Below, piece by piece: positions 2,145 to 28,620 of a stretch of DNA of 64,000 bases. The stretch lies in contig JAURZV010000093.1 in assembly GCA_030653175.1 (NCBI GenBank), positions 1 through 64,000 of the forward strand, given 5' to 3'. Source of the DNA: Methylobacter sp. GTDB lineage: Bacteria; Pseudomonadota; Gammaproteobacteria; Methylococcales; Methylomonadaceae. The number at the start of each line of letters is the position of its first letter. Position 1 is the first letter of the stretch. The translations under genes and the position numbers were made by a program. The notes beneath the pieces are model-generated. The model was given only the letters and a program-made list of their open reading frames with translations, was not told where the DNA came from and did no database searches.

Positions 2145-2201
2145 ATAATCATCTCCAGTCTGCGGATAGTTTTCGTGCTGGTTGAAAGTCAATGAACAGT
2201 T

Positions 2202-7375: not shown

Positions 7376-8131
7376 CTAACCAGCCTCGGATACATATCCA
7401 TACTGGTATGTTGGCAGCGGCTGTCTTGACTTGTTCAGAACCAAGCCAAGCAGGTTGGTCTGCTCCAGAATGTACATGGAATGTTGAAGCTCTTCGGTAG
7501 TATTCTTCCCATCCTCTACAACAAGTAGCGCAGCATCGGCATACGGCATCAATACCATCGCATCGTCCGCCGCAAAAAGCGGCGGAAGATCTAAAATAAT
7601 TATCCGGGATTCGTAGCGCGATTTGATTTCTTGAATCAGGCTGATCATTTTTCGGGATGAAATCAATTCCGAAGAATTGTTATCGGAATTTTTCCCGGGC
7701 AATACAACCAGGCGCTCAATGCCGGGATTGACTAAAACATCCTCCAATGCAACATCGCTCTTCAGGCAATCGACAAGCCCGAATTCACACTGGAGACCCA
7801 GGTATTGGCCCACACTTGGGCGTCTGAGATCAGCATCAACGATGAGCACGCTTTGGTTGCCCTCCATCGCTATGGCAATCGCCAGATTTACGGATATGAA
7901 GGTTTTTCCCGCCCCTGGCGTCGCGCTCGTTATGGCAAAGCTGTTCCAGTTATTTTCCCGCAGTTGCTTGAGGACATTCGTCCGGAGCACGCGAAACAAA
8001 TCCGCTCGTGGATCGTTGTTGAGTCCCATAATTACTCGATTATTCCGCAACACATCCTGATCAATAATGACCGATTGAGTTTTTGTGTAGCGTATCGAGT
8101 CGAGTGGGTATTCATCAGCATTTTTAATCAT
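7376..8131 (-). CDS. Polysaccharide tyrosine autokinase, CpsD/CapB type
   Basis: This 251-residue cytoplasmic BY-kinase is a P-loop protein of the ParA/MinD superfamily. Walker A is TPGAGKTFISVNLA near residue 70, Walker A' is VLIVDADLRRPS near residue 97, and Walker B is IIILDLPPL near residue 175. The C-terminus has a short tyrosine cluster (TYQYGYVSEAG) that would be the autophosphorylation site. It lacks its own membrane segment, so it should be activated by the Wzz-like protein encoded directly upstream; the two genes overlap by four bases (8128-8131), which implies coupled translation. Together they control polymer length and export. Length and motifs fit the family well. Confidence 0.9.
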   Translation of the reverse strand: MIKNADEYPLDSIRYTKTQSVIIDQDVLRNNRVIMGLNNDPRADLFRVLRTNVLKQLRENNWNSFAITSATPGAGKTFISVNLAIAIAMEGNQSVLIVDADLRRPSVGQYLGLQCEFGLVDCLKSDVALEDVLVNPGIERLVVLPGKNSDNNSSELISSRKMISLIQEIKSRYESRIIILDLPPLFAADDAMVLMPYADAALLVVEDGKNTTEELQHSMYILEQTNLLGLVLNKSRQPLPTYQYGYVSEAG

Positions 8132-9873: not shown

Positions 9874-9897
9874 AACTTTTTAAAATGGAGATTCTAT

Positions 9898-11094
9898 TCA
9901 GTTAACAGATATAACGCCCAATGCATCATGGAGTGCCTTTACTACGTAATCTTGCTGATCAAGACTCATTTGAGGGAACAACGGCAAGATAATAGTGTGA
10001 TCCTGAGCTTCTTGGCTATGCCGGAGGCGCTGACAAAATCCAGCAGTGCAGGCACAACCCTCAGTTCTACCGACACATGACCATGTATTAGCCGGATAAG
10101 CGACCTCCCTGTGTGAACACATCACACCCCGCCGAGTCGCCACACCCGTATCCAGCATGGACTGCATAACCTGCCGTTGGTCTGATTCAACAGGCAGACG
10201 AACACAAAAGCTTTGCCAGGTACTGCGTGCCCAGTCCGGCTCCACCGGCAAACCCAGTCCCGGTATTTCTGCGAGCAGTGACTGGTAGCGGGAAGCCAAG
10301 CCCCGGCGTTTGTCGACAATCTCCGGTAGACGCTTAAGTTGTTCCCTGCCAACCGCCGCCTGTATATCAGTTATGCGGAAGTTGAAACCGACTATCGGAT
10401 AAGACTCGAAGATCACCTGGCTCGCTCCATGGCGAACGGTATCGGGGACACTCATGCCATGCTGTCGCAACAGCCTGAACTTGGCGTCCCATTCGGCATT
10501 CGCTGTCGTAATCATTCCGCCGTCGCCAGTACTTATCACCTTGCGCGGATGAAACGAAAAGCATGCAATATCGCTTTGCGGTTTGCCGATTTTTTCCCAT
10601 TGTCCCTGCCAAAGAATTTCGCTGCCGATGGCGCAAGCGGCATCTTCAACGACGGGGAGCGAATGGCGGTGCGCTATTTCGAGAATCGCCGCAAGATCGC
10701 AGGGCATCCCGATCTGATGCACACATAAAATAGCGCGAGTGCGCTCTGTCACGGCGTTTTCGATCTGAGTGGGATCAAGATTGAACATAGCGGGTTCGAT
10801 GTCCACGAATACCGGTGTGGCGCCGCAGTAGCGGATCACGTTGGCAGTGGCTATGTAAGAGTGGCTGACGGTAATGACTTCATCGCCAGGCTGCACACCT
10901 ACAGCCAGCAGCGCCAAATGCAAGGCGGTGGTGCAACTGGATACCGCGCAGGCGTACGGTGCGCCTACGTATTCGGCAAACTCCTTTTCGAACGCGGCAA
11001 CTTCCGGACCCTGACTGGTCCAGCCACTCAAGATGACGCGCCGTGCCGCCTCCGCCTCATTCTCGCCCAGCATGGGTTTGGTAATCGGGATCAT
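9898..11094 (-). CDS. DegT/DnrJ/EryC1/StrS sugar aminotransferase
   Basis: This 398-residue PLP enzyme should transfer an amino group, usually from glutamate, to a nucleotide keto-sugar. The ATG at 11094 is chosen because it has GGAGGTG seven bases upstream and overlaps the preceding stop as ATGA; a start at 11124 would extend into the upstream gene. MIPITKPMLGENEAEA is a classic family start. The PLP lysine lies in CFSFHPRKVISTGDGG near residue 190, and VVEDAACAIGSE holds the PLP-ring aspartate. A Cys/His-rich piece near 335-370 (CSHREVAYP, CVGRTEGCACTAGFCQRL) is longer than usual. With the epimerase upstream it probably makes an amino-sugar donor. Confidence 0.88.
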   Translation of the reverse strand: MIPITKPMLGENEAEAARRVILSGWTSQGPEVAAFEKEFAEYVGAPYACAVSSCTTALHLALLAVGVQPGDEVITVSHSYIATANVIRYCGATPVFVDIEPAMFNLDPTQIENAVTERTRAILCVHQIGMPCDLAAILEIAHRHSLPVVEDAACAIGSEILWQGQWEKIGKPQSDIACFSFHPRKVISTGDGGMITTANAEWDAKFRLLRQHGMSVPDTVRHGASQVIFESYPIVGFNFRITDIQAAVGREQLKRLPEIVDKRRGLASRYQSLLAEIPGLGLPVEPDWARSTWQSFCVRLPVESDQRQVMQSMLDTGVATRRGVMCSHREVAYPANTWSCVGRTEGCACTAGFCQRLRHSQEAQDHTIILPLFPQMSLDQQDYVVKALHDALGVISVN

Positions 11095-12065
11095 GATTGC
11101 ACCTCCGGCTTGTTTGTGCGCCACCAGTCGACCAGCTGAGAAAGCCCGTCTTCCAGGTCAATTTGTGCTTTGAATCCGAGCAATTGTTCAGCCTTGGTCG
11201 TGTCGGCCAAGCGCCTGGATACAGGATTCACTGTTCGCTCCGGCCCGTACTCCGGCTTTAGATCGGAACCCATCACCTTAAGCAAGGTTACGGCCAAGTC
11301 ATTGAGGCTGGTTTCGGTACCGCTGGCTATGTTGAAGACATCATCGGTCAGGTCCGATTGCAGGGCCAGGATATTGGATCGGGCGACGTCTTCGATGTAC
11401 ACGAAGTCCATGGTTTGGGCGCCATCTCCGAGGATCAGCGGCGGCGTTCCGGCCGCGATGCGTTCCATCCAGCGGATCAGCACCTCGGTGTATTTGCCAT
11501 GAATATCCATGCGAGGACCATAGACGTTAAAATAGCGCAATGCCACGTAGGGTAGGCCGTACATTTCATTGAACGAACGGAGCAAACCTTCCAGCATAAT
11601 TTTGCTGGCGCCGTACCAGGTGCGGTTGTTGTAAGGGTGATGATCCTCGCGAGTAGGGAAGGTGTCGGCCAGACCATAAATCGATGCCGAGGATGCCGCC
11701 ACTACCTTTTTTACTCCGGCAGCCTGTGCGGCTTCCACCACATTGAAACTACCGTCGCACATCACATTCATCGCTTCACGAGGATTGGCCGCGCAAGCGG
11801 TGATGCGAAGGGTTGCCATATGGATCACCGCGTCCATGCCCTGAGTCGCGCTACGAACGGCCTCCGGATCGCGAATATCCTCCTGAACCAGTTTCACGCG
11901 AGGATCTTTCAAGGCCGCCTCAACATTGGCCAGCGTCCCTCGACTCAAATTATCGAGAATGACGATGCTTGCGGGTGAATAGTCCCGCAGTAACAAATCT
12001 ATGGTTGTGGAGCCGACCAGACCGCAGCCGCCTGTGACCAATATGTTCGAATCTTTAATGTCCAT
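11091..12065 (-). CDS. NAD-dependent sugar epimerase/dehydratase
   Basis: This 324-residue extended short-chain dehydrogenase acts on nucleotide sugars (UDP-glucose 4-epimerase-like). The NAD-binding motif is VTGGCGLVGS near residue 12, ASSASIYG supplies the catalytic serine near residue 125, and YGASK the Tyr-Lys pair near residue 150. RYFNVYGPRMD is the substrate-loop motif of GalE/RmlB-like members. Its stop overlaps the aminotransferase start, so the two proteins are probably made together and could work in sequence. The exact substrate and whether it epimerises or dehydrates cannot be decided here. Confidence 0.87.
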   Translation of the reverse strand: MDIKDSNILVTGGCGLVGSTTIDLLLRDYSPASIVILDNLSRGTLANVEAALKDPRVKLVQEDIRDPEAVRSATQGMDAVIHMATLRITACAANPREAMNVMCDGSFNVVEAAQAAGVKKVVAASSASIYGLADTFPTREDHHPYNNRTWYGASKIMLEGLLRSFNEMYGLPYVALRYFNVYGPRMDIHGKYTEVLIRWMERIAAGTPPLILGDGAQTMDFVYIEDVARSNILALQSDLTDDVFNIASGTETSLNDLAVTLLKVMGSDLKPEYGPERTVNPVSRRLADTTKAEQLLGFKAQIDLEDGLSQLVDWWRTNKPEVQS

Positions 12066-13878: not shown

Positions 13879-14550
13879 TCATTTTGGTTTTGCTGGATTT
13901 CCGATCATCGTTGAATTGGAAGGTACCGGACAGACTACATTGGCGGCCATTCCAATCATGCTGCGATCACCTATATTTATACCATTCTTTATTGAGCTAG
14001 CGCTGCCTAGGTAGCAGCTTTCACCGACCTTTACATGACCGGCAATCGTAACGTTAGCTCCTATCATAGTGTAGTCACTAATATTTACATCATGATGGAC
14101 TATAGAGTTTGGCAATATAAATACGTGGTTACCTATTACTGCATTTGCAGTTACAATTACACCAGCAAAAACTATAACATCATGACCGATTTTTGCGAGC
14201 CGTGAAACCACAGCTGTCGGATGAATGATCGTAGCGAAACGCGAATCAGGGACTTTAAAGTCGTTGATGATCTTTTTTCGGTTTCGAAAATTAGCTTCCG
14301 AACCAATCAACGTTATCACCTTGACATCTTTGTATTTCTCTAACACCTGACGTGTATATACAGGTATACCTTCAAAACTTAGTTTTTGGCGCTCTGGGTT
14401 GTCATCTATAAAACCAATTATCTCGTAGCTATTTTCAATAGTATCTATAGCGTCAATGGCATTTCCCCCGAAGCCTAAAACGAGTAATGGCGATTTAGCT
14501 ATATTTTCCTCTTTTCTGAAATCTCGACATTCTGTCACTCCGTTATACAT
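13879..14550 (-). CDS. NeuD/PglD-type sugar acyltransferase
   Basis: This 223-residue enzyme has an N-terminal nucleotide-sugar-binding domain ([14 protein letters not shown] near residue 22, [12 protein letters not shown] near residue 45) and a C-terminal left-handed beta-helix made of isoleucine-rich hexapeptides. The catalytic histidine is probably one of the HH pair in [11 protein letters not shown] near residue 150. PglD-type enzymes acetylate the amine of UDP-4-amino sugars with acetyl-CoA. The start at 14550 is supported by GGAGGTGG six bases upstream; the gene overlaps the 3' end of the aminotransferase gene by 16 bases, so aminotransfer followed by N-acetylation is the natural reading. 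Confidence 0.88.
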
Positions 14551-15659
14551 TCAACCACCTCCTGATTTGCGAGCATCGTGACGGCCTCACTGACTTCTTT
14601 GCATTGAGCCCGACTTAACTCGGCGAACATCGGAAGGGAAAGCACTTCGTCGGCCGCCTGCTCCGAATGGGGAAAATCCCCCTTGGTATAGCCCAGGTCG
14701 GCATAGGCCGGCAGGAGATGCACGGGGATTGGATAATGAATTCCGGTCTGGATTCCTTCGGCTTGCAAGGCCTGCTGCCACTCACTTCGCTGCCGGGTAC
14801 GGATCGCATAGATATGATACACATGCCGAGCATAAGGCATTGCCTCTGGCGTTGGCACGCCGCTATCGGACAACAGTTCGTTGTAATGCGCTGCAGCCGC
14901 TCGCCGTGCTTCGGTCCATGCTTCCAGGTGGCGCAGCTTGACCCTGAGGACCGCCCCCTGAATGCCCTCCAGGCGAAAGTTGTAGCCCTTGAGCACATGC
15001 TGATATTTCTGCTCTGCACCCCAGTCACGAAGCATGCGGATGGTACGGGTATATTCGGCATTGTTGGTAACCACCATGCCGCCTTCGCCGTAGGCACCGA
15101 GATTCTTGCCGGGATAAAAGCTAAAACAGCCCATGTCGCCGATGCTGCCCACGCGTTTGCCCTTGTACTCCGCACCGTGAGCTTGAGCCGCATCTTCGAT
15201 GACCACCAAACCATGTCGTTTGGCGATATCCAGGATGGGATCCATGTCCGCAGGTTGACCATACAAATGCACCGGCATGATAGCTTTGGTTCGTTCGGTG
15301 ATTGCGCCTTCGATCGCTTTTACGTCGATTGTGAAAGTGCGAGGATCGATGTCAACAAATACGGGCGTAGCGCCGGTGTAGTAAATCGCCGCTACGGTCG
15401 CCACAAAGGTAAACGGAACGGTAATCACCTCATCGCCGGGGCCAATTCCGGCCGCGAGCAGGGCAAGGTGCAAAGCGCTGGTTCCGGTGTTCACGCCAAT
15501 TCCGTATTGGGCCTGACTATAGGTGGCGAATTCCTCCTCAAACGCGGCCACTTCGCTGCCCAAGGTAAACTGGCAGGTTTCCAATACACCCTGAATGGCC
15601 GCGTTAACTTCGTCTTTAATTCCGGTGTACTGAGCTTTGAGATCGACAAACGGGATCAT
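14535..15659 (-). CDS. DegT/DnrJ/EryC1/StrS sugar aminotransferase (WbpE/WlbC-like)
   Basis: This 374-residue PLP enzyme begins [11 protein letters not shown], the characteristic start of 3-amino- or 4-amino-sugar transaminases. The PLP lysine is in [16 protein letters not shown] near residue 185, and [13 protein letters not shown] carries the cofactor aspartate near residue 158. GGAGAG precedes the ATG. It overlaps the upstream dehydrogenase by four bases and the downstream NeuD-type gene by 16, so the three form a tight cassette. With the dehydrogenase it could carry out oxidation and transamination at C3 of a UDP-HexNAc-derived acid, as WbpB/WbpE do. A C4 reaction feeding the NeuD-type enzyme is the alternative. 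Confidence 0.9.
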
Positions 15660-16699
15660 GCCACTCTCCTGCCTTGATATATGGCCGATCCGTTGATTTC
15701 AACGGATCGGCCATGTTCATTCATCGAGCGGGTCGCCGCCTCGATTAATTCCACCACCCGCAGTCCCAGAGAACCGTTGGTCAGCGGCGTCTTGCCGTTT
15801 TCGATGCAATCGGCAAAATGCTCGCCCTCGACGCGCAAGGCCTCTGAGGAGTCCAGCTGCGGCGCCCACATGTCCCCGGTACGATAGCCGACCCGCATTT
15901 CATAAATCTTCTGCGGGTCATCGGTGAAGCTGACACCCTTGTCGTAAATCTTGATCTTTTCGCTCGGCTCCAGATCGTCGTAGATGATCATTTTCTTGCT
16001 GCCGCCAATCAGAATCTGGCGCAATTTTACCGGCGCCAACCAACTCACATTGATATGCGCTATCATTCCTGAGTCGTAAAACAGTGTAATGTATGCCAGA
16101 TTTTCCGGTGTGTGGGGAAAGTGGTTGGTGCCGACGGCGGACACCGCCACCGGCTGTTCTCCCAGTAGATAGTCGAGAATCGAGAAGTCATGTACCGCCA
16201 AATCGGCGATGACGTTGGCATCCCGTTGGAACAAGCCGAGATTGATTCGGGTGGAATCGTAGTAATGAATATGACCCAGTTCTCCCGACTTTACCAGATC
16301 CGCCATTTTGCGCACCGCACCCGTGTAAATGAACGTATGATCGACGATCAGTACGAGCTTGCGCTTATTAGCTTCATTAATCAGTTTGCGTGCCTGCTCC
16401 GAGGTTTCCGTCATCGGTTTTTCCAGCCAGACATGTTTACCGGCCTTGAGAGCAGCCATTCCCAGTTCGAAATGGCTATTAACCGGGGTCGCTATCGCGA
16501 TGGCATCGATGTCTTTATTCTCAAGCAGATCCTGGAAACGTGTTGTGGTGTTTACCCCGGGAAAGCGCTTCTGAACAATTTCAAGTTTTTTCGGATCGAA
16601 ATCAGCCACGCCGGCAACTGTAAGTCCCGGTGTCTCGGCGAAATTCCTCACCAAGTTGGGTCCCCAGTAGCCGTATCCAATAACACCTATTCTAATCAT
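15656..16699 (-). CDS. Gfo/Idh/MocA-family sugar dehydrogenase (WbpB/WlbA-like)
   Basis: This 347-residue NAD(P)-dependent oxidoreductase has a Rossmann start ([18 protein letters not shown]) and the family signature [11 protein letters not shown] near residue 95, whose lysine is catalytic. [15 protein letters not shown] near residue 170 is the substrate-binding helix. AAGGAGAA precedes the ATG. WbpB/WlbA enzymes oxidise C3 of UDP-N-acetylglucosaminuronate; a following transaminase (15659) and a beta-helix acetyltransferase (17568) would complete a 2,3-diacetamido sugar acid. The same gene trio appears here in order, which supports but does not prove this pathway. Confidence 0.88.
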
Positions 16700-17061: not shown

Positions 17062-17568
17062 CTAGGCAAAACTTGGCACTGTCTCGCGGCTCTCTCCCCG
17101 TATGCGGGCATCGCCAACGACTCGGGCAGGGACGCCGGCGACAATTGCATAATCGGGCACATCGCGGGTAACCACGGCTCCAGCGCCAATCAAAGCCCCT
17201 TCGCCAATAGTGATTCCGCAAAGGATGGTCGCGTTGCTGCCGATAGATGCACGGGCCTTGACGCGGGTCCTGATAACTTGCCAATCGTCCTCTGTTTGCA
17301 GCTCTCCGTCCTCGTTAACCGCTTTTGGATAAACATCATTGGTAAACATGACACCATGGCCTATGAAGACTCCATCCTCGATGTCAACGCCTTCGCAAAT
17401 AAAAGTATGGCTGGATATTTTGCAGCGGGCGCCCACCGAAACGCCTTTTTGTATCTCAACGAATGTACCGATTTTGGAATCCTCTCCAATAATGCAACCG
17501 TAGAGATTTACAAGCTGAGGATGGTATATGGCAACCCCTTCGCCTAAAACTACATTTTCTTTAATCAT
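17062..17568 (-). CDS. Left-handed beta-helix sugar N-acetyltransferase (WbpD/WlbB-like)
   Basis: This 168-residue trimeric hexapeptide-repeat acetyltransferase starts MIKENVVLGEGVAIYHPQLV. Hexapeptide repeats run from about residue 5 to 150, with the loop FTNDVYPKAVNEDGE near residue 82 as in WlbB/WbpD enzymes, which N-acetylate UDP-2-acetamido-3-amino-2,3-dideoxyglucuronate. AAGGGG precedes the ATG. With the following dehydrogenase and transaminase genes it would make a 2,3-diacetamido hexuronic acid donor. A 172-bp MITE-like element separates it from the dehydrogenase gene, but the genes remain co-directional. Confidence 0.87.
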   Translation of the reverse strand: MIKENVVLGEGVAIYHPQLVNLYGCIIGEDSKIGTFVEIQKGVSVGARCKISSHTFICEGVDIEDGVFIGHGVMFTNDVYPKAVNEDGELQTEDDWQVIRTRVKARASIGSNATILCGITIGEGALIGAGAVVTRDVPDYAIVAGVPARVVGDARIRGESRETVPSFA

Positions 17569-17634: not shown

Positions 17635-20600
17635 TTATTGGTATGTAACCTGTACCGCCGCCAAATCCAGCGAAAAGTCGCGGTTGGTGTTTGAAGCCAC
17701 ATTAATGATGCGTGTGCGGAAGCCGGTATCCGACACGTTACTCACGGTCCAGGCGCGGCCCCACGTATCGGCGGCGCCGCCCAGAATGTAAGTGGCCTCA
17801 CTTGTGGTGAGCGTCGCCGTGGTCTTGGCCGCCGTCCATGTCGTGCCGCCATCCCAGGACAGCTGTACGCACATCCTGGGGGCGCCGGCAGTGGCGTCGA
17901 CCCGTGCGTCCATACGAACTTCAATGCCCGCGATGGACGCACCGCTCGGCAAGTTGAAACCGTAGTTGTAGTAAATATGCTTGTCTTTGCCGGCATTGGT
18001 ACAGGAAGTATTTGTATTGGTGCCGCTGTTTGTATCCACCGCGAATAGGCCATCATTGGAATAAGCATTGGTCGGAGTAGTCTGGAAGCCGTTATTGTCA
18101 CCGGCGTTAACTGTCACTGCCGCGTTAGCGCTAGGTGCCAGAAAGCCGGTAGTCGTGGCAACAGTAATACTCAGGGCTTTGGTGGCCGTCCCGACAGGAC
18201 TGGCGGAATCACTCACCTGTGCGGTGAAGTTGAAGATGCCGGTCGCGGTGGGCGTCCCGGTAATCGCGCCGGTGGCGGTGGTCAAGCTCAAGCCGGGGGG
18301 CAGCGCACCGCCGGCGATCGACCACGACGTGTATGGCGGAGTGCCGCCGCTCGCCGTCAACGTCGTCGCCGGGTAAGCGACATTCAGCGTCCCGTTAGGC
18401 AACGAAGTGGTGGTTATGCTAAGCGGTGCGGCATTTACCGTCAGGACGGTATTGCCGCTCACACTGCCAGAAGTCGCCGAGATCGTCGTACTGCCTGGGC
18501 TGACACCGGTCGCCAGCCCGCCGGCATTAATGGTGGCCACTGCGGTGCTCGAAGACGCCCACGTCACCTGACTGGTGAGGTTCTGCGTGGAACTATCCGA
18601 GTAAGTTCCTGTTGCTGTGAAGGACTGCGTCGCTCCAGTCAGGATTGCAGGGTTCGTCGGCGTCACCGCGATGGACGTCAGAGTCGGCGGTGGACTTGAA
18701 CTGAACACCACGTCCACCCAATAGTTGGTGCTATTAAAGGTCTGGCTTGGGAAGGCGCTGGTTGCACCGTAGGCATACACACCGTTCGCTGACACACCGG
18801 CGGATAGCGCATGCAGCGGCGGGCTGTCCACCCCGGTACTCGCAAAGTAGTTCAGATCGGCGCTATAGTGCCCGGCGTTGGCGTGATACGAGGCCACGTA
18901 GACGGTATTGGCAGTGATCGCCACTGGGGTGGGGAATAGCACCTGCTGCCAGCCCGATGCTGTTTCTCCGCTGAAGGTAGCCGACGCCAGCAGCGTTCCG
19001 GTGCTCGACCACAGGTTGCCAACGTGCGTCCCGGTGTTGGTGCCGGCCTTGTAGAAACGGATGCCGGTGATGGTGCCGCTGACATCGGCCCTGAACTTCA
19101 CGCCCAACTCCACCGCACTGTCCGGACCGCCGTCAATCACACCCGGCACCGTTGCGCTGGGCCAGATGGTACAGTTGCTGCCGGTGCATGAGGTTCCGCT
19201 GCCAACGGTGACGCTGATGCCGGCATTGGGCGTTTCGAGGATGCCGCTGTCGTCCGCGGCGCGGCTTTTGATCGTCACGGAACCGGGGATGTTGGCTGTC
19301 CAGGTATAGCTCCAGTTTGCGCGACCATTGGCAGGGTGCCATGTGGCTCCGCCGTCAATCGAGACCTCGACACCGCCGACCACGCCGCCTCCAGTATCTG
19401 TTGCTGTGCCGGTAATAGAGACCTGGCTACCGCTAGTTATTGTTGATCCGTTGGCGGGAGCGGTAATCGTCGAACTTGGCGCGGTCACATCGGCCGAAGC
19501 GGCGGCGGCCGTTAGACCGGATTGCAGGGTGGCCGGCTGGACTCCCATGTCGGCAAACAAGTTGACCGTCGCCTGCTGCATTCGTACGTCGGGCGGATTG
19601 CTGCCACGATCATGGTTGCTGTCCAGGCCCCAAGACCACTGTACGGTTCCCGCACCGAAAACGAGTGCTCCGCTGACCGAGCGATACAGCGTCAGGGCGT
19701 GATTTGCAGTACCCGAGCCGAAGGTGGAGCCGTAGTCGGTCAGGACCGGTGCATTGTTGACGATGGTCGTTGAATTCCGAACCAGACCGGCGGGCCGGAA
19801 GCCATTATCCAGATCCACGTCCCATTCGTAGCCCAGTGTGCTTCCAGCCAGCGTGGCGGTAGTTCCGGCAGTCAGGGTAGCGATACTGGTGTTACGCCAG
19901 AAGCGCATCTTGCCGTCCGCTTCGGGCACAGTGATCGCTGTGGTGGCCCCATCGTTTACCATGAAGATCGGTCCCAGCAACGCATTCTCCGGACGCCCTC
20001 CATCTGCCGTCCCGATCGGCGGGGAGTTCCTTGGATCGCGCCAGGTACCGGTCCAGATTGGCGGGTCGAGCGGATCGCGATTGTTGGGGAAGTTATGAGT
20101 TTCCTTGTAGCACACGAGGGTTCGATTGGCCGTATTTGAACCATCAATACTGTTTTCCCAGCGAGTCTTCCAGAACACCTCGTTGCCGCTGAAGAATACC
20201 AGATTGACTGGGTTTGACGTTGCGTCCCGTGCTGTCTCAACATTAGTACGTTGTGCGCCGGACCAATACTCGTCATGGCCGACGGATAGAAACACCTTAT
20301 GGTTGCTGATCAGGTTGCCGCGCCGGTCGCTGTCGACGCCGGCGAAATAACTGACATCGTAACCGTTGGCTTCGAGCCAGCGCACCATCGGATACTCGGC
20401 GTTGAATACCCAGTCCTGGCCGCCATCAACAGCACGCGTGTTGAAAGGCCGGTTGTAGCTGACCTTGTAGGCCCGGCCATTTGCCGCGCCGCCGGTGCCA
20501 GGGCCACTACCGGTGTACAGGCTGTTTCCGCCGTAGTTGTTGTAAGCCTGCCAGGTGGTATCCGAGGTCTGGAAGAGCATCTTGGAGGTGCCGGCGTCGT

Positions 20601-23600
20601 CTCGGACCACAAATACGATGTGGCTGGCGCCGCCGGTATCCGAACGTACTGCTCGTGCAAAGTAAATGCCGGAGGTTGCATCAACGGGTACCGCCCATGA
20701 AGCAGACTGTGCCCAATTGCCGCAGTCGATCAGTCCTGTGGTGTTAGTCATGCAGGCCGGCTGAGTCTGAGACGGCAAAGAGGTTATTGTTGCCACCTTC
20801 CGCGCACCGTTCCCGCCGTAATAGCCCATGCGGTAGATATCGAGGCGATAGGCCGCGACGCTTTTGATCTTGAAATTGACCGTGCCGCCCCGGTTTACGC
20901 TGATATCCGTAGCGAAGCCTTGGATGTTCAGGTCGCCGGCGCCGATAATGTCCCATTCACTCGATGGATTACCGGCCTTGCCGTTCTCGCACACGATCGG
21001 ATTGCCTCCGGATGTGCACGGATCTGTGCCGGTGGTGAACGACCATATGCGGTCCATAGCAAGAGTATTGCCTGCCAAGTCTTGAACCCCTCCGGCTCCG
21101 CCCTTCACGGTAGCCGTATAGGTCGTGTTTGCCGTCAAAGCGCTGTTCGGCGTCAGCGTTGCGGTATTGCCGGCATAGGTCACCGTGGCGGACACCGGCG
21201 GATTGTTCCCGGTCTGCAATTGGAAGTTAGAAGTGGTGATAGTCGTGGCTTTCATCGCCTCGCTGAAGAGCGCAGTCACTGCCGTTGTCGGGTTAATTCC
21301 CGTGGCGCCCTCCGTTGGCGACGTCGACACGACTGTCGGCGGCGTCGTGTCAGGGCCGGTGCCGGTCGTGAACACTACGTCCACCCAGTAGTTCGTGGAC
21401 TGGTAAGTGTTGGCGGGGAATCCGCCGCCGATGCCGTACAGATACACGCCATTGCCGCCGCTCACGCCGTCTCTCAGCAAATGTACCGGCGGCGCATCGA
21501 CACCCGAGGTACCGAATTCCGGGCTGTTTGTTGCGGCGTAATTGCCGTTGGGCGCGTAGTACGAGGCGACGTACACTGTACCCGCAGTGACCGGCACCGG
21601 CGTATTAAAGCTCACCTGTTGCCAACCCGTGGCGGTTTCGTTGCTGAAGGTTGCCGTTGCCATCTGCGCCCCGGCGCTGGTCCAGAGATGTCCCACGTGG
21701 GTGCCGGTGTTGGTGCTGCCCTTGTAAAACCGGATGCCGGTGATGAAGCCATCGAGATCGACGGTGAATTTAACACCCAATTCGACGGCATTCGGATCGT
21801 TTACGGACGGAGTGCCAGGGATGGTTGAGCTGCTCCACGCGTTGCAGGGTGTAGACACGCATGGCTGGGCCTGGGTCGTGAAAGACCAAGTGTAAGGGGC
21901 AGCCAGGGCGTTGCCGGCCGAATCCTTGATACCTGTCAAAATCGTTGCGGTATAGAGCGTCGAACCAGCCAGCAAGGTGCTGGGCGTCAGTCTCGCCGTG
22001 CGTGTGCTTGCATCATAGCTGACTGTGGCGGACACCGGCGGGTTGCTTCCGGTCTGCAATTGAAAGTTGGACGTAGTGACGGTCGCCGGATCGATCGACT
22101 CGCTAAAGGTAGCCGTGACTGTAGGCTGTTGAATCACGCCGGTAGCACCGCTCGCCGGAGAGGTCGAAGTTACCGTTGGAGGTGTTGTATCTGCCCCGTA
22201 AGTGGCGGTATAAGCTCCCGCCGCTGCCGTGAAAAAGGCATACTGAATGCCTTTGATGATATCGGTCGTATACGCAACGGCGCCATTTGGCCCGGTGAGG
22301 CCAACGAGGACGCCTGTGGCGGAATTTACCGGCAGCATGGCTTGCAGACCGTTGGCTCCTGCGCCTGCCGTGACCGTGAAACTCAGGCTGCCGTTGTTCC
22401 ACGCCGGCGATCCGAACGAGGAACTGTTGCGGCCGTCCAGCCAATCCAACATCTGCTTGCTCGAAACGACCGGGACACTGCGAGCCAGGGCCGAATTGAC
22501 CGTAGTGGTTGCTTCGGGGATTTGAGATACATCGGTATGAGCATTGATGGTATAAGCCCCATAATAACCTTCGGCCCCGAGTGCTCTATCCAATAACGTA
22601 TCGATAGTGAATGGATAGGTCTGCCCGGATTCGTCGGTCATCTGACTGGCGGCATGGTAGACATCGATCATGGAACCGTCCAGGTTGACAAAACGCATCG
22701 GCATGCCGGAACCGCTGAAAAATCCAGGACGATTCAGCACCCAGCCGGGAGGCCAGAAGTAATAGCTGGTATCGAAACGGATTGCGTTTTCTAACTGTAC
22801 GATCGCGCCGGTGACCCAGTCACTCCAGGCAATGCAATGGTGCCGCTGAGTGATGGGAGCCGGTATGCTCGAATACTTGGTTGTGAAATCCCCAATTTGC
22901 TGGGTATAAAAAGTCCTGAGAGATGCGGGAGTAAAATCTGCGCAGTTCGTATTGACATGCAGTCCCACTTCAAAACCATCCGCGTTATAGGCGGCGGCTT
23001 GTGCATTGGTCAACGGGGTATTCGGGTAGATATACGAAGTACCTCGTATGCATTCCCAGTTAGCCACCGAACAACCTGCGGGGCTCATTGACTTAAACTG
23101 ATCAAAACGGCCTTGTGTGCCATTGTTGCCGTGATCGTCTCCGGTCATGATGACGACTGCTTTTTTGCCGCGCGGAAAATACCAGAAGCGGGGTAACGGT
23201 TTCTTGTCGCGATTCATCTCGAGAATCAGGTTTGCGAGCAGTCTCTGCTGCTCATCCGCCTGCGGAATCGCGATCTTGTCGAAATCAATCCAGTCAGCCT
23301 GCGGATCGCCGGAGGCATTACCGAAGAACTTGTCGTCGGAGCGGATCGGGCTAAATCCGTCGCGCTCCTGCGTGGCCCAGGCAGGATTGCCTTGCCGGGT
23401 ATAGACGATGGAAGTGGCGAGGTCATAGGTAAAAGCGGCTGCTTGACCGCCGTTGGTACCGACGCTTCGCAGAGTCACGGCAGGATTGGTGGTCGCTGTT
23501 GTTGCGTTCGTGTAAAGTATCGCAAGGCTCGAAGCGCTGGTAACCGTATAACGATCAGCAGCACCATGAAACTGGAGGGTTTGGTTCACGATTCCGTTAC

Positions 23601-26361
23601 CCGGCGCCTGCGATGTATCAACCAGCAGATAACCATTCGAGAGCGTGGTTCCGCTAGCGGTGACGCCCAGTAAATCGGCAAGCTGCGCGTTTGGGCGCAT
23701 GGCGATCAAGTTACCGCCTGCTGTAGCCCAATCGGTGAGCATGGTCACTTGGGCGGATGTCAATGTCATCTGCGCCAGAATCACCACGTCGTAGGCAGCT
23801 AAGGTAGTCGCGTTAACGGTCGAAATATCGGCCATGGCAAATTCATTGAAGCCTTCGGTCCGTAGAATCTCCGCGTAATACTTACCAAAGGAGTCGGATG
23901 CGGTGGTTACGACCAGGATCGGCCCACCCGGCGGGTTAGGGATGGCGGCCTCAGCTGCTGGGATTAACCAGTCCAGCACCCGATTGAAGATACTGGATAG
24001 CGTGACCGTCGCCAATGGAGTAGAAATCGGCTGTGTAATCTGACCGGTGCCGGCAGGAACCGATTCAATTGAAGATACAGATACGGTGGGGATTGTTTCG
24101 GAATTATTGGATTGTGGTTGTACGGGTACGCTGATGATCTGTTTGGTTTGGCCTTTATTAACATCCCATTCTTTGATCTCGCCGTCTTCACTTCCTGCAA
24201 TTAAATTACCGAGTGGGTTGAACGCGAGTGCATTGATGGCATTCGTTGCGCCGGCTATTTGCTTGTCCAATTTACGCGTCGCCGTATCCCAAACCAAAAT
24301 TTTGGTGTCTTCGCCCGCACTGACCAATATTTGACCATTCGGACTGAACGCAACTGCTCTAATGGAAGCCTGATGTCCCGCAAAGCTCTGGATTTGCCGG
24401 CCGGTTGCGGCATCCCACAAAATCACCAGGCTATCAGCGCTTCCGCTAGCCAGGAACTTGCCGTTTCGGCTAAAAGCAACCGCGTTGACCTCATTCGAGT
24501 GACCCAGTAGCGTTTGAACAAGCTGTCCTGTTATTACATCCCACAGCAGGATACGACCATCGGCGTCTGCGCTGGCCAGGCGTTTTCCGTCGGGGCTGAA
24601 ACTGACAGCATTCACGAAATCAGTATGGCCGGAAAGAATTCTGATCAGCTTGCCGGACTGCGCATCCCATAACATGATTCTCGTTTCTTCGCCGGCGCTG
24701 GCGAGGAACTTGCCGTCAGGACTAGCCGCGACGGTCCTGATCGGGTGTTCATGAGCCAATAAAGTCCGGCCCTTTTTGCCATTCGTGACGTCCATCATTT
24801 GGATTTCCGTATCCCTGCCTACGCTCACTAAGCTCTTTCCATCGGCACTAAAAACAACCCCGGTTACAGCAGCGCCATGATGTCCTGAAATGGCAAAACG
24901 CTCTTTTCCGGCTGAAGTCCAAAGCCTAACTTTACCGTCCCTGGTCGTGCCGCCATAGAGCGCTCCATCCGGACTAATGGCGAGCGCCGTAACTCCCTTC
25001 CAATCGTGGTTGCTTTTCTTCTTGTTAGGGCTTTTAGTGCTCTGATTAACGCCAGTTCCTTTAACGGCTTGGCCATTCTCATTGGGCAAGCCCGGCCCCG
25101 CTGCGACAGCCGTGGCTGTATTTGTGATTGAATTGCCGGAAGCGAGCCCCTGCGGGTTTACACTGGCGGCGCCTAACGAGGGAACCTGAAAAAACAACCG
25201 CTCCAGCCCGGTCATTAAGTCCCATACGACGACCTGTCCGGTTTTGCCCACGCTGGCCAAGGTCTTCTGTTTGGAATTGAAAATGACCTTGTCCACCCAA
25301 TCCGTATGCCCTGTTAGAAGTTGTGGCAGTTGATTGGACACATCCCACAAAAAAACCGGCTCGCTTTCACCCACGCTGGCCAAGGTCTTGCCGTCCGGGT
25401 TAAATACCAGGCCGGTAATAGCGACACCGCTCTCTCCCGGTAGGTTCGCCTGTTCCTTGCCTGTTGTTCTATCCCATAGTTTAATCTGGGCATCCTGACC
25501 GCCGGTGGCCAGGATTTTACTGTTCGGGCTAAACGCAATGGCATTAACGCCATTTTGGTGACCGGTTAAAATCTGGGATGTAGAACCGGATTGCGAATCC
25601 CAAAGCGTGATGCGGGCATTCTGGTCTACAGCGGCCAAGGTCTTGCCGTCCGGGCTAAATAGCAGATCGGTGACAGCGGTATCAACCACGCCGGGCAGGT
25701 TCACCTGTTTCAGGCCTGTTGCCTTACTCCAGAGGTTAATCTGAGCATCCTGACCGCCGATGGCCAGGATCGTACTGTCCGGACTAAATGCGATAGCATT
25801 AACGCCTCCTTGATGACTGGCTATGACCTGAGTTATGGAACCGGATTGTGAATTCCAGAGCGTGATACGGGCATCCTGACCCACAGCGGCGAGACTCTTA
25901 CCGTCCGGACTAAATGCCAGGTCGGTAACAACGCCGCTCTTGGGAAGAATTAATCGGGCGTCACCGGATGTGACGTCCCATAGTCGAATTGAGTTGTCGC
26001 TTACGCTAGCCAGCGTATTGCCGTCCCGACTAAAAACAATATCGCTAACCGGGTTTGCAAACTGGCTCGGAAGCGTCATGCGCATTTGGCCGGAGACCAC
26101 ATCCCAGAGCATAATTTGCCCGTCGGAGTCCGCACTGGCCAAGGTATTGCCATCCGGGCTGAACGCAACGGGGTCGGGTCCCTCGCCAGGGAGCTTAATA
26201 GAGGAAGACTTGATCGCCTGATTGGCGCTTGCAGCTCTGGCAGGTTCCGAAGTGCCTATTGTTTGAACAAAAGCAATCAAAGTCAGAATGATAAGCACGA
26301 GGTCCGTTTTGTTAAGTACAAGCCCCGTCAGGTATTGGTATTTTATCTTTAGCTTATTCAC
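17635..26361 (-). CDS. Giant secreted WD40/deacetylase-like/DUF4082/dimethylformamidase-like protein
   Basis: This 2908-residue protein starts at a GTG (26361) with AGGAG seven bases upstream. A signal-like helix (LVLIILTLIAFVQTIG) covers residues 21-36. Fifteen WD40-type repeats follow at about 55-745 (signatures such as LASADSDGQIMLWDV), split 8 plus 7 by a low-complexity linker at 395-450. Residues 800-1390 hold an ILVVTTASDSFG domain and a polysaccharide-deacetylase-like domain (IMTGDDHGNNG near 1072, GLHVNTN near 1134, HHCIAWSDW near 1173). Then come Big_5-like (about 1395-1500), DUF4082 (1510-1660), Big_5-like (1668-1770), an N,N-dimethylformamidase beta-subunit-like domain (1780-2270; LDIYRMGYYGG, SVGHDEYWS), an Ig-like domain, a second DUF4082 (2397-2553), Big_2, He_PIG and a beta-rich C-terminal domain (2737-2908). 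No LPXTG or PEP-CTERM anchor is visible. It probably works outside the inner membrane on the polysaccharide; catalysis is unproven. Confidence 0.85.
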   Translation of the reverse strand: MNKLKIKYQYLTGLVLNKTDLVLIILTLIAFVQTIGTSEPARAASANQAIKSSSIKLPGEGPDPVAFSPDGNTLASADSDGQIMLWDVVSGQMRMTLPSQFANPVSDIVFSRDGNTLASVSDNSIRLWDVTSGDARLILPKSGVVTDLAFSPDGKSLAAVGQDARITLWNSQSGSITQVIASHQGGVNAIAFSPDSTILAIGGQDAQINLWSKATGLKQVNLPGVVDTAVTDLLFSPDGKTLAAVDQNARITLWDSQSGSTSQILTGHQNGVNAIAFSPNSKILATGGQDAQIKLWDRTTGKEQANLPGESGVAITGLVFNPDGKTLASVGESEPVFLWDVSNQLPQLLTGHTDWVDKVIFNSKQKTLASVGKTGQVVVWDLMTGLERLFFQVPSLGAASVNPQGLASGNSITNTATAVAAGPGLPNENGQAVKGTGVNQSTKSPNKKKSNHDWKGVTALAISPDGALYGGTTRDGKVRLWTSAGKERFAISGHHGAAVTGVVFSADGKSLVSVGRDTEIQMMDVTNGKKGRTLLAHEHPIRTVAASPDGKFLASAGEETRIMLWDAQSGKLIRILSGHTDFVNAVSFSPDGKRLASADADGRILLWDVITGQLVQTLLGHSNEVNAVAFSRNGKFLASGSADSLVILWDAATGRQIQSFAGHQASIRAVAFSPNGQILVSAGEDTKILVWDTATRKLDKQIAGATNAINALAFNPLGNLIAGSEDGEIKEWDVNKGQTKQIISVPVQPQSNNSETIPTVSVSSIESVPAGTGQITQPISTPLATVTLSSIFNRVLDWLIPAAEAAIPNPPGGPILVVTTASDSFGKYYAEILRTEGFNEFAMADISTVNATTLAAYDVVILAQMTLTSAQVTMLTDWATAGGNLIAMRPNAQLADLLGVTASGTTLSNGYLLVDTSQAPGNGIVNQTLQFHGAADRYTVTSASSLAILYTNATTATTNPAVTLRSVGTNGGQAAAFTYDLATSIVYTRQGNPAWATQERDGFSPIRSDDKFFGNASGDPQADWIDFDKIAIPQADEQQRLLANLILEMNRDKKPLPRFWYFPRGKKAVVIMTGDDHGNNGTQGRFDQFKSMSPAGCSVANWECIRGTSYIYPNTPLTNAQAAAYNADGFEVGLHVNTNCADFTPASLRTFYTQQIGDFTTKYSSIPAPITQRHHCIAWSDWVTGAIVQLENAIRFDTSYYFWPPGWVLNRPGFFSGSGMPMRFVNLDGSMIDVYHAASQMTDESGQTYPFTIDTLLDRALGAEGYYGAYTINAHTDVSQIPEATTTVNSALARSVPVVSSKQMLDWLDGRNSSSFGSPAWNNGSLSFTVTAGAGANGLQAMLPVNSATGVLVGLTGPNGAVAYTTDIIKGIQYAFFTAAAGAYTATYGADTTPPTVTSTSPASGATGVIQQPTVTATFSESIDPATVTTSNFQLQTGSNPPVSATVSYDASTRTARLTPSTLLAGSTLYTATILTGIKDSAGNALAAPYTWSFTTQAQPCVSTPCNAWSSSTIPGTPSVNDPNAVELGVKFTVDLDGFITGIRFYKGSTNTGTHVGHLWTSAGAQMATATFSNETATGWQQVSFNTPVPVTAGTVYVASYYAPNGNYAATNSPEFGTSGVDAPPVHLLRDGVSGGNGVYLYGIGGGFPANTYQSTNYWVDVVFTTGTGPDTTPPTVVSTSPTEGATGINPTTAVTALFSEAMKATTITTSNFQLQTGNNPPVSATVTYAGNTATLTPNSALTANTTYTATVKGGAGGVQDLAGNTLAMDRIWSFTTGTDPCTSGGNPIVCENGKAGNPSSEWDIIGAGDLNIQGFATDISVNRGGTVNFKIKSVAAYRLDIYRMGYYGGNGARKVATITSLPSQTQPACMTNTTGLIDCGNWAQSASWAVPVDATSGIYFARAVRSDTGGASHIVFVVRDDAGTSKMLFQTSDTTWQAYNNYGGNSLYTGSGPGTGGAANGRAYKVSYNRPFNTRAVDGGQDWVFNAEYPMVRWLEANGYDVSYFAGVDSDRRGNLISNHKVFLSVGHDEYWSGAQRTNVETARDATSNPVNLVFFSGNEVFWKTRWENSIDGSNTANRTLVCYKETHNFPNNRDPLDPPIWTGTWRDPRNSPPIGTADGGRPENALLGPIFMVNDGATTAITVPEADGKMRFWRNTSIATLTAGTTATLAGSTLGYEWDVDLDNGFRPAGLVRNSTTIVNNAPVLTDYGSTFGSGTANHALTLYRSVSGALVFGAGTVQWSWGLDSNHDRGSNPPDVRMQQATVNLFADMGVQPATLQSGLTAAAASADVTAPSSTITAPANGSTITSGSQVSITGTATDTGGGVVGGVEVSIDGGATWHPANGRANWSYTWTANIPGSVTIKSRAADDSGILETPNAGISVTVGSGTSCTGSNCTIWPSATVPGVIDGGPDSAVELGVKFRADVSGTITGIRFYKAGTNTGTHVGNLWSSTGTLLASATFSGETASGWQQVLFPTPVAITANTVYVASYHANAGHYSADLNYFASTGVDSPPLHALSAGVSANGVYAYGATSAFPSQTFNSTNYWVDVVFSSSPPPTLTSIAVTPTNPAILTGATQSFTATGTYSDSSTQNLTSQVTWASSSTAVATINAGGLATGVSPGSTTISATSGSVSGNTVLTVNAAPLSITTTSLPNGTLNVAYPATTLTASGGTPPYTSWSIAGGALPPGLSLTTATGAITGTPTATGIFNFTAQVSDSASPVGTATKALSITVATTTGFLAPSANAAVTVNAGDNNGFQTTPTNAYSNDGLFAVDTNSGTNTNTSCTNAGKDKHIYYNYGFNLPSGASIAGIEVRMDARVDATAGAPRMCVQLSWDGGTTWTAAKTTATLTTSEATYILGGAADTWGRAWTVSNVSDTGFRTRIINVASNTNRDFSLDLAAVQVTYQ

Positions 26362-26555: not shown

Positions 26556-27695
26556 TTACATGGCGCCTCTGCACTTTAAAACTTCCTTGACCGTTCTGAG
26601 TAATATCTTTAAATCAAATAGTAGAGACCAGTTCCGGATGTACCGAATATCCAGCCTCACCGAGTCATTCCATTCTGTTTTACTTCGTCCTTCTACCTGC
26701 CAGAGTCCGGTGATCCCAGGCTTCATCTCCAGTATTCGTCTGAGATGCCACGCTTGGTATTTCTCAGCTTCGTAAGGAAGGGGCGGTCTCGGTCCAACCA
26801 GGCTCATGTCTCCCTTTAACACATTAAAAAACTGCGGCAGCTCATCAATACTGGTTTTTCGAATGAATTTTCCAATCCGGGTTATCCTGGGATCGGATTT
26901 AATTTTAAATAATGGTTTTTCCGCATCCCCTTGATTGATTTTTGCGTGATTACCTTTGATAAAGTCTTGGACGTATTCGCGGTGTATTTGATTATCCATA
27001 TTCACATACATGGATCGAAATTTATAGAATGTGAAAGGAGTGCCTTGCTTGCCCAAGCGGATTTGACTGAAAATGACAGGTCCCGGGGAAGTTACTTTGA
27101 TAGCCAATGCTGTAATTAACATTACTGGCATAAAAATAAGTATGCCGATAATCGATCCTACGATATCAACACCCCTTTTTAATAGAGATTTAAACCGTGA
27201 AGCACCCGTTAAATCCCCTGAATCCCACAGTTCGAAAGGGAAAGCATCGGGTCGAACACATCCGTTTTTTGTGAGGCTTTCAAATATATGATCAGGATAA
27301 CTTGAGGTAGTAATAGAAAATCGTGAATTGTCATTAACTAGTTTTGCACAAATTTCTTTCGCCCCTGTCTCGTCTGTATCGGGGAGGAGTACACATATGG
27401 CTTTATGGTTAACGAAGCCGCTAATGTCGGTATCTCGTGTTTTTCCCCGAATAACGCCTAAAACCTCATTCATATTAATGGGTTCAACATCTGTCTCTTT
27501 ATCAAGGGTTAGTAATATAAGTGATAACGTGGATTTAGACCGCTGCGCCCGGAGCGTCTCAAGGCGCAACTGCTCGTGAAACCAAAAATCATAAAAAATC
27601 TCACCAGGAGTAACCCGATATTGACCTGAATTATTGGGCGGGACGGGCGATGGTCCAGGCCCTACTAATAAATGTTCATTTATTTTCATTTTCAT
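26556..27695 (-). CDS. Initiating sugar-1-phosphate transferase with GGDEF-like N-terminus
   Basis: This 379-residue protein should start repeat-unit synthesis by moving a sugar phosphate onto undecaprenyl phosphate. The C-terminal half is a bacterial sugar transferase domain: KRGVDIVGSIIGILIFMPVM is its membrane segment near residue 190, then SPGPVIFSQIRLGKQG, FYKFRSM, and the end motifs VGPRPPLPYE and PGITGLWQVEGRS. The N-terminal 150 residues resemble a degenerate GGDEF domain (FWFHEQLRLETLRAQRS, ICVLLPDTDETGA) without the GG(D/E)EF signature, so it is not expected to make cyclic di-GMP. ATG at 27695 is preferred over a TTG at 27701; ATG at 27689, six bases after GGGA, is equally possible. 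It is the first gene of the minus-strand locus. Confidence 0.88.
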   Translation of the reverse strand: MKMKINEHLLVGPGPSPVPPNNSGQYRVTPGEIFYDFWFHEQLRLETLRAQRSKSTLSLILLTLDKETDVEPINMNEVLGVIRGKTRDTDISGFVNHKAICVLLPDTDETGAKEICAKLVNDNSRFSITTSSYPDHIFESLTKNGCVRPDAFPFELWDSGDLTGASRFKSLLKRGVDIVGSIIGILIFMPVMLITALAIKVTSPGPVIFSQIRLGKQGTPFTFYKFRSMYVNMDNQIHREYVQDFIKGNHAKINQGDAEKPLFKIKSDPRITRIGKFIRKTSIDELPQFFNVLKGDMSLVGPRPPLPYEAEKYQAWHLRRILEMKPGITGLWQVEGRSKTEWNDSVRLDIRYIRNWSLLFDLKILLRTVKEVLKCRGAM

Positions 27696-28620
27696 TCCCA
27701 ATCTTTACTATGTTGTAGTTACCTGGATCGCTCTTCTTTTATTTAAAAAAGATATATAACGAAATAATAAAGTAACTTCTCACTAGTGACAGGTAAGCGT
27801 AAAAATCAACAAGTTACGGTCAATGAAAAATTAACTTTTCAAACGATCTTTGTTGAAAATCGCTATAAGCCATTGGCTATTCGTTGGCGGACTAACAAAT
27901 AACGCGCTTATCTTAAAGGTTTATCATAATGTAACTGATTGAAATATAATGCCATTACGGTTAATGGAAAGTTGCATAATGAACAAGCATGAGCATAGCT
28001 GTGCCTTTTAAGTAATTATTAAAAATCAAATGGCTATAAAAAAATATCACTGTTCATAGAATAAATGCGATTCTAACTTATTGATTTAAAATTATTTTAT
28101 GTCGTTGAGCAGTTACGCTATATTTAAATCGATGAGCAGCAAATATTGAACTCTAATCCATTAACCAAGAAAACCGTTGGGATGGGGCTTAGGTTAGAAG
28201 AAACAAATCATTTGCACAATCAGTGGAAATACTTATTGGATGAAAGTATTAATCGCCCGAATGCGTGTTATTCGGCTTGCGGACAGGTGTCGGCACGATA
28301 GACATACCTATGCATTGCTGTCTCCAATCTTCCGGCGCCTGGCGCCGGACGCGGCTAATGTGTGCTGCCTTTGAATGGGTGTCAGGGCAACCCTGTACCT
28401 TATCGTATTGTGGGTAGACAGGCAGGTGATATTGTAATGTTGGCCAAAGTAGAATTCGGCTGAGTCCTGATGAGATACGTGCCGACTTGTGGCGGTGGCA
28501 GCAATTTGCGCGAGAGGCGTTGTTGTGTAAGGTTCTATCGCACTGAACCCCAAAAGTTGTACGAATAGAGGTCATCTGTCACAATAACATCAATATAGTG
28601 ACTAACAAAAGGACAGCTCC
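27696..28620. promoter_or_regulatory. Long divergent intergenic region between glycan locus and fhc operon
   Basis: This 925-bp region must hold the promoters for the sugar transferase gene (leftward) and fhcB (rightward). No gene is supported. Two short plus-strand frames (28182-28301, starting MGLRLEETNHLHNQ, and 28240-28374, starting MKVLIARMRVIRL) read plausibly but have no ribosome site or known relatives. A 19-base near-perfect palindrome, TCCGGCGCC-T-GGCGCCGGA, lies at 28331-28349. The left half is strongly AT-rich and the right half (28240-28575) has gene-like composition, so it may contain a decayed gene or a leader RNA. Confidence 0.45.

Follow-up and report, generated by a model that had tools for sequence, protein, structure and literature searches.

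A 64,000-nucleotide stretch of Methylobacter sp. DNA (hereafter the window) encodes a 2908-residue protein that is, in our judgement, reasonably likely to be an exported, bifunctional polysaccharide N-deacylase of the neighbouring glycan locus, combining two unrelated chemistries in one chain. The protein is probably exported, with a signal sequence that would direct the chain out of the cytoplasm, and its two candidate catalytic units would cleave amide-bound acyl groups from the amino-sugar polymer of the locus. Unit 1 would be a metal-dependent deacetylase of the NodB type that also has a GATase-like domain, with an overall build like that of Agd3, PelA and NDST, while unit 2 would be a DMFA2_C module with the mononuclear-iron residues of dimethylformamidase, a putative relative of N-acetyl-beta-phenylalanine acylase. 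The WD40 propellers may form a docking platform, and the Ig-like and DUF4082 modules may be spacers or glycan-binding parts. The labour could be divided between the two units, for example if the two N-acyl groups of a di-N-acyl sugar each had their own unit.

Domain architecture and genetic neighbourhood

The gene occupies positions 17635-26361 of the window, so that the coordinates and length of the preliminary description were correct; the strand is minus. Translation gives a real open reading frame, which starts with a GTG codon at 26361 with AGGAG just upstream, and the plus-strand frame over the same positions contains many stops. A scan for promoters and terminators gave a result near chance. 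The domains and neighbouring genes are collected in Table 1.

Table 1. Domains of the 2908-residue protein and neighbouring genes of the glycan locus (window coordinates).
Feature	Residues	Coordinates	Strand	Basis
Sec-type signal sequence	1-43	26233..26361	-	By eye; n-region KLKIK, hydrophobic LVLIILTLIAFVQTIG, ARA-A site
WD40 propeller A, 8 blades	60-385	25207..26184	-	Pfam and repeat pattern; boundaries set by analyst
Low-complexity linker	390-450	25012..25194	-	Repeat pattern scan
WD40 propeller B, 7 blades	450-750	24112..25014	-	Pfam and repeat pattern; boundaries set by analyst
GATase/ThuA-like alpha/beta domain	810-1050	23212..23934	-	AF2 model; VIA-align to ThuA-like and related chains, Z 15.6-16.3
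NodB-type deacetylase barrel (predicted)	1055-1312	22426..23199	-	Predicted fold and conserved residues
C-terminal beta-rich part of deacetylase unit	1315-1385	22207..22419	-	Secondary structure of model
Big_5 Ig-like domain	1391-1496	21874..22191	-	Pfam
DUF4082 copy 1	1510-1655	21397..21834	-	Pfam; boundaries set by analyst
Big_5 Ig-like domain 2	1665-1770	21052..21369	-	Pfam; boundaries set by analyst
DMFA2_C iron-amidohydrolase-like module with its own Ig-like N-part	1775-2255	19597..21039	-	Pfam and profile alignments
Big_7 / Mo-co_dimer-like Ig domain	2293-2375	19237..19485	-	Pfam
DUF4082 copy 2	2400-2550	18712..19164	-	Pfam
Big_2 Ig-like domain	2562-2642	18436..18678	-	Pfam
C-terminal domain	2745-2908	17638..18129	-	Common to two other proteins of relatives
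Initiating polyprenyl glycosylphosphotransferase (Bac_transf)		26556..27701	-	Bac_transf E 2.6e-71; TIGR03025 above its cut-off
Hexapeptide sugar N-acetyltransferase		17062..17568	-	Best PDB match 3mqg 'Lipopolysaccharides biosynthesis acetyltransferase'
Gfo/Idh/MocA oxidoreductase		15656..16699	-	Closest NCBIfam model UDP-GlcNAc 3-dehydrogenase, 174 bits, below the cut-off of 450
DegT/DnrJ sugar aminotransferase		14535..15659	-	Family profiles
NeuD/PglD-type sugar acetyltransferase		13879..14550	-	TIGR03570 above cut-off
Epimerase/dehydratase, second DegT aminotransferase, chain-length determinant, tyrosine autokinase		7376..12065	-	Family profiles

The 15 WD40-type repeats first described from the letters of the sequence, as 8 + 7 around a low-complexity linker, were recovered, 14 of them by an ad hoc pattern and one by eye (INLWS near residue 208). 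The repeats are about 42 residues long with WD ends, the spacing between blades is mostly 41-43 residues, and 12 WD40 stretches were scored by Pfam on their own. The E-values in Pfam were 6.7e-111 for WD40, 2.5e-100 for DMFA2_C and 4.3e-100 for DUF4082 (two stretches), with further matches to Big_5 (two stretches), Big_7 and Big_2, which bears out the two DUF4082 domains, the dimethylformamidase-like domain and the several Ig-like domains of the preliminary description. The source for residues 1-759 is the whole-protein Pfam search, of which the best 25 of 73 families are considered; residues 760-2908 match seven Pfam families at E <= 0.1, with no glycoside hydrolase and no sulfotransferase among them. 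DUF4082 is named in the accessible text of a paper on a Methylococcus secretome. A Sec-type signal sequence, also claimed earlier, is readable by eye in this protein and in four orthologs. By eye, the C-terminus shows no PEP-CTERM tail, though three exosortase matches, of which one is strong and two are weaker, exist in the genome (C20:1421-2170, C62:103394-103801 and C64:108631-109227). The C-terminal domain is possibly a sorting or binding domain. It also ends two proteins of relatives (L008 and L009) that by eye are secreted and zinc carboxypeptidase-like.

As had been described, the gene adjoins that of an initiating sugar transferase, and it does so in all five genomes that carry it, including one (G048) in which the transferase is read as two overlapping ORFs. 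The neighbouring genes may encode a 2,3-diamino-sugar (Wlb/Wbp-type) nucleotide-sugar pathway, in which the hexapeptide N-acetyltransferase would be WlbB. The candidates for the 3-dehydrogenase, aminotransferase and N-acetyltransferase of such a pathway fall in the right superfamilies, with the Gfo/Idh protein below its cut-off and the acetyltransferase nearest to 3mqg. For the chain-length determinant and the tyrosine autokinase the nearest models are those of the XrtA system, both below cut-off, and the exosortase matches in the genome are in keeping with these XrtA-like genes. The glycan locus also contains two asparagine-synthase-type amidotransferases (window 246-2192 and 3189-5066; XrtA-system model below cut-off), which possibly amidate uronic acids. 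Formylmethanofuran genes of one-carbon metabolism lie near the giant gene.

The deacetylase-like and dimethylformamidase-like units

Unit 1 (residues 800-1385, 586 residues) has no Pfam or PDB sequence match. Sequence searches with the deacetylase part gave weak unrelated matches at best, and a profile built from 24 sequences (alignment A2, the window and 23 loci; L089 was left out for a frame break and L090 as a fragment) had a flavodoxin as its sole match among PDB sequences (E 0.22). The AlphaFold model of residues 800-1385 from the 24 sequences has a pLDDT of 88.8 and a pTM of 0.91, and is composed of a GATase-like alpha/beta domain followed by a barrel and a beta-rich end. Its best Foldseek match is the heparan N-deacetylase/N-sulfotransferase NDST1 (9f6z, E 5.1e-9; TM-score 0.29 of the query) and the second is the Pel modification enzyme PelA (9cgy, E 2.5e-8; TM-score 0.44 of the query), both TM-scores being low; ranks 3-20 are carbohydrate-active enzymes, mostly glycoside hydrolases. 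With VIA-align, the top scores are those of two glycoside hydrolases (6tvk, Z 18.4, 261 residues; 5xb7, Z 18.0, 237 residues), and the glycoside hydrolase fold matches presumably arise through the GATase-like domain. The longest alignment listed is that with the CE18 galactosaminogalactan deacetylase Agd3 (6nwz; Z 17.3, 463 residues), where the rmsd of 10.0 is presumably due to domain shifts. Single-domain deacetylases (3rxz, Z 16.9; 3qbu, Z 16.2; 1z7a, Z 16.0) and ThuA-like chains (Z 15.6-15.8) were also matched, and a viral fold search was uninformative. The predicted fold agrees with the deacetylase-like region with an Asp-Asp motif that had been read from the sequence.

All 24 aligned sequences share D1075, D1076, H1077, H1135, R1173, H1175 and H1275. 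The Asp-Asp motif (CM1) is kept as D1075 and D1076, which the order of the strands would place as the structural equivalent of the motif in Agd3. The HxxxH metal motif (CM2) of CE4 and CE18 is not kept, as H1135 is present in 24/24 but the residue at +4 is N in 14, G in 7, S in 2 and D in 1. H1175 may be the replacement third metal ligand. In the model, unit 1 looks to be built like an Agd3/PelA-type N-deacetylase; since it fails one defining CE4/CE18 motif, it is not placed there and may represent a new esterase family.

Among known systems, Agd3 shares with unit 1 the GATase-like domain, the (beta/alpha) deacetylase barrel, the beta-rich end and the DD motif, and Agd3 homologues are reported from bacterial glycan operons in the accessible text of the source (PMC7229062). 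Agd3 differs in that there is no sequence-profile match between the two, HxxxH is not kept here, and the WD40, DMFA2_C and DUF4082 domains are extra here. PelA is likewise a polysaccharide N-deacetylase, whose class is given as CE21 and whose metal triad uses two His of one motif in the portion of the source available (PMC12022489). PelA has a hydrolase domain, whereas none is present in residues 760-2908 of the giant protein, and unlike NDST1 the giant protein has no sulfotransferase family in that range.

Unit 2, the DMFA2_C module (PF20254), scores 337 bits against a Pfam gathering cut-off of 27. Profile searches of the PDB matched two enzymes, N-acetyl-(R)-beta-phenylalanine acylase (8i5a, 8huy) at E 9.6e-14 and dimethylformamidase at E 8.8e-6 with a narrow profile, and at 3e-25 and 2.3e-26, respectively, with a wider one. 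The acylase is the best match of the narrow alignment; by its name it removes an N-acetyl group, and its substrate is an amino-acid derivative. A single-sequence phmmer search of the DMFA2_C region against the PDB had HMG-CoA synthase as its sole matches (E 0.03), and was superseded by the profile searches. In the accessible text on dimethylformamidase, Y399, Y440, H519, E521, N547 and E657 serve in iron binding or catalysis (PMC7686228), and all six align to matching residues here (Y1940, Y1949, H2029, E2031, N2060 and E2179). As aligned, these six putative active-site residues, a 2-Tyr-1-carboxylate iron site plus His, Asn and Glu, are identical in 21/21 close homologues (alignment A3, the window and 20 others) and in 15/15 mixed homologues down to 25% identity (alignment A4, 15 chosen rows, 8 of them from relatives); A4 excludes L048 and the fragment L046. 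Modelling of the DMFA2_C part with AlphaFold gave a poor result (pLDDT 53.7), so the assignment of unit 2 rests on sequence profiles. The large subunit of dimethylformamidase (6lvb) resembles unit 2 in its Ig part and its GATase-like domain III, but its pentraxin-like domain II (74-337) has no aligned counterpart here, and the known enzyme, as the available part of its description has it, degrades a solvent and has a large subunit that is inactive alone and requires a small subunit (PMC7686228).

Distribution of the two units and of the amino-sugar cassette

Two peptide patterns, run against one genome per species, recovered at least 25 deacetylase-unit loci, at 50-88% identity. The hosts are Methylococcaceae, Competibacteraceae, Betaproteobacteria, Calothrix, Nostoc, Actinomycetota, Acidobacteriota and a Dormibacterota MAG; three loci (L066, L068 and L070) belong to relatives already counted (G022, G025 and G020), and L079 and L090 come from one assembly. 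In 20 of the 25 loci, over four phyla, unit 1 has a same-subfamily DMFA2_C unit in its flank, in fused or neighbouring genes. The other five comprise three end-of-contig cuts (contig ends cut L069, L079 and L089) and two loci, L087 and L088, without unit 2 within flanks of about 10 kb. ORF calls are excluded from these unit counts, as wrong-strand ORFs were picked in several GC-rich loci. DMFA2_C is itself uncommon, being found in 8/101 relatives and 0/14 control genomes. Three of these eight relatives (G029, G031 and G057) have no deacetylase unit and carry stand-alone DMFA2_C proteins (L034, L037 and L041-L047), and eight aligned stand-alone proteins of relatives are 25-36% identical, with the six iron-site residues kept.

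The arrangement of the units varies. Both units and the propellers form one chain in six rows, the window included, which cluster with other Proteobacteria in a tree whose deep forks are weakly supported. The WD40 part is a separate gene beside the two fused units in L071, L072 and L077, and is fused to the deacetylase, with the DMFA unit separate, in the three Nostocales; eight Actinomycetota pair loci have both units without WD40, which was found at 12/25 loci overall. G048, a genome of the family itself, has two genes in place of one, and by eye the second has its own signal sequence. Most separate genes with inspected N-termini (14 in seven loci, two in L077) appear signal-like by eye; the signal is weak in the fused gene of L090, which the contig end truncates. 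In L077, a locus of a betaproteobacterial MAG, the propeller gene next to the pair (L077:8701-9843) shows, by eye, a lipoprotein-type site (VAGC). WD40 repeats had been called unusual in secreted bacterial proteins, and their secretion is supported by the signal-like N-termini, judged by eye, at the three loci with a separate propeller gene (moderate in L072).

Within the family, the giant gene is present in 5/101 relatives (own included), each time with the initiating sugar transferase on one side and the Gfo/Idh-DegT cassette on the other; for G048 the synteny count did not detect the adjacent acetyltransferase. The cassette Gfo/Idh is found in 8/101 relatives (own included). The question of whether homologous glycan loci of relatives lack the gene has a mixed answer, with the gene present in five of the eight cassette genomes and absent from three (G004, G050 and G060, 99-100% complete), where the sugar transferase adjoins the acetyltransferase. 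The giant protein is therefore not needed for polymer synthesis and would be an optional modifier. In G004, the acetyltransferase and Gfo/Idh genes are separated by a 430-aa ORF on the other strand (L059:2454-3746) that matches nothing in the window. The class sample of 369 genomes gave one match by profile, which is the own genome; in the phylum sample of 398 there were two, the own genome again and a marginal match of 92 residues.

Outside the family, Betaproteobacteria, Nostocales and an Acidobacteriota MAG have homologues of the acetyltransferase, Gfo/Idh and DegT trio next to the pair, and with family members included this trio is found in 11/25 loci. Over the five genes compared, the window and the Calothrix locus L074 are 62-76% identical. 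We take the trio to suggest that the amino sugar bears an additional N-acyl group, and work for two amidases would be in keeping with this. In a mirror-tree comparison, distance-matrix correlations of the units with the trio genes were 0.45-0.80, against 0.94 for the Gfo/Idh-DegT pair, a weak and mixed result that is not counted as support.

In Calothrix, a sugar N-formyltransferase (L074:20236-21204) lies between DegT and the epimerase, where the methanotrophs have the PglD-type acetyltransferase, and in the other two Nostocales (L075 and L076) a formyltransferase lies 0.4-0.5 kb past the examined locus. This position hints at N-formyl versus N-acetyl decoration. A formyltransferase was rejected as a general partner, as the three Nostocales are the only ones of the 15 genomes searched to have it in the cluster; the best matches in the other 12 are 27-33% identical, except in G510 (46%), and tblastn over the window and 32 other loci gave no match except L074 itself.

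Proposed role and its alternatives

Of the two roles first offered for the protein, polymer modification and scaffolding, the former is supported by the predicted fold of unit 1 and the conserved candidate active-site residues in both units, and a pure scaffold is less likely. Nevertheless, the enzyme-like units could by now be glycan-binding, in a structural matrix protein or adhesin whose scaffold cross-links or anchors the polymer. The chain is very long and beta-rich, the number of Big_5-DUF4082 units varies among relatives, the HxxxH motif of the deacetylase is altered, and the GATase-like domain of Agd3 is described as a binding module in the accessible text of the source (PMC7229062). 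The iron-site and candidate deacetylase residues are, however, fully conserved over several phyla, which would be unexpected for dead enzymes, and we consider such a structural role unlikely. It is improbable that the protein is a foraging or remodelling enzyme for foreign or recycled polymer, merely parked in the locus. Its optional presence among the cassette genomes would fit such an enzyme, as would the actinobacterial pair loci, of which two of eight have a nearby sugar transferase and none has the trio; among ten actinobacterial neighbours scanned, one sugar transferase was the sole match to a glycan family. The recurrence of the same trio as far away as the Nostocales and the Acidobacteriota MAG speaks against foraging, as does the lack of a glycoside hydrolase among the seven Pfam families of residues 760-2908.

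That the gene is a passenger, a mobile insertion unlinked to the glycan locus, seems very improbable. The patchy distribution (family and class sample), the occurrence of the locus without the gene and the GC content of 18-24 kb, which is above that of the surroundings, could be read in its favour, but the position is the same in 5/5 genomes and the linkage is repeated in other phyla, including cyanobacteria, in agreement with the preliminary description, which had placed the gene in the pathway. We therefore return to the N-deacylase. Because the two units recur together in distantly related bacteria, they probably act jointly, stripping acyl groups from a cell-surface sugar polymer. A bolder reading, put forward tentatively, is that the pair makes up a new system for modifying exopolysaccharides that spans several phyla. 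Unit 1 would then represent a new family of carbohydrate esterases whose metal site has changed, the unit 2 that usually accompanies it would be the first iron (2-Tyr-1-carboxylate) amidase acting on a polysaccharide, and each would take a different N-acyl group off a di-N-acyl amino sugar; in the Nostocales, where the formyltransferase is in the cluster, one of these groups is possibly N-formyl.

An exported polysaccharide deacetylase is an enzyme of a known kind, and to our knowledge the known systems PelA, PgaB and Agd3 use NodB-type enzymes alone. Searches of the literature library found no paper on the pairing of a polysaccharide deacetylase with a dimethylformamidase-type enzyme, the few matches being, by their titles, on other subjects, and no paper on a WD40 protein of such a type was found among the matches listed. 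De-N-acylation sets the charge, adhesion and stability of biofilm polymers. An ortholog of the giant protein is present in Methylobacter tundripaludum SV96 (L070), so the hypothesis can be tested. If true, it would provide a functional hint for DUF4082 and a biological role for dimethylformamidase-type enzymes outside solvent breakdown, and polysaccharide maturation would gain a new chemistry, in which an iron-based amidase is kept beside a NodB-type enzyme across four phyla.
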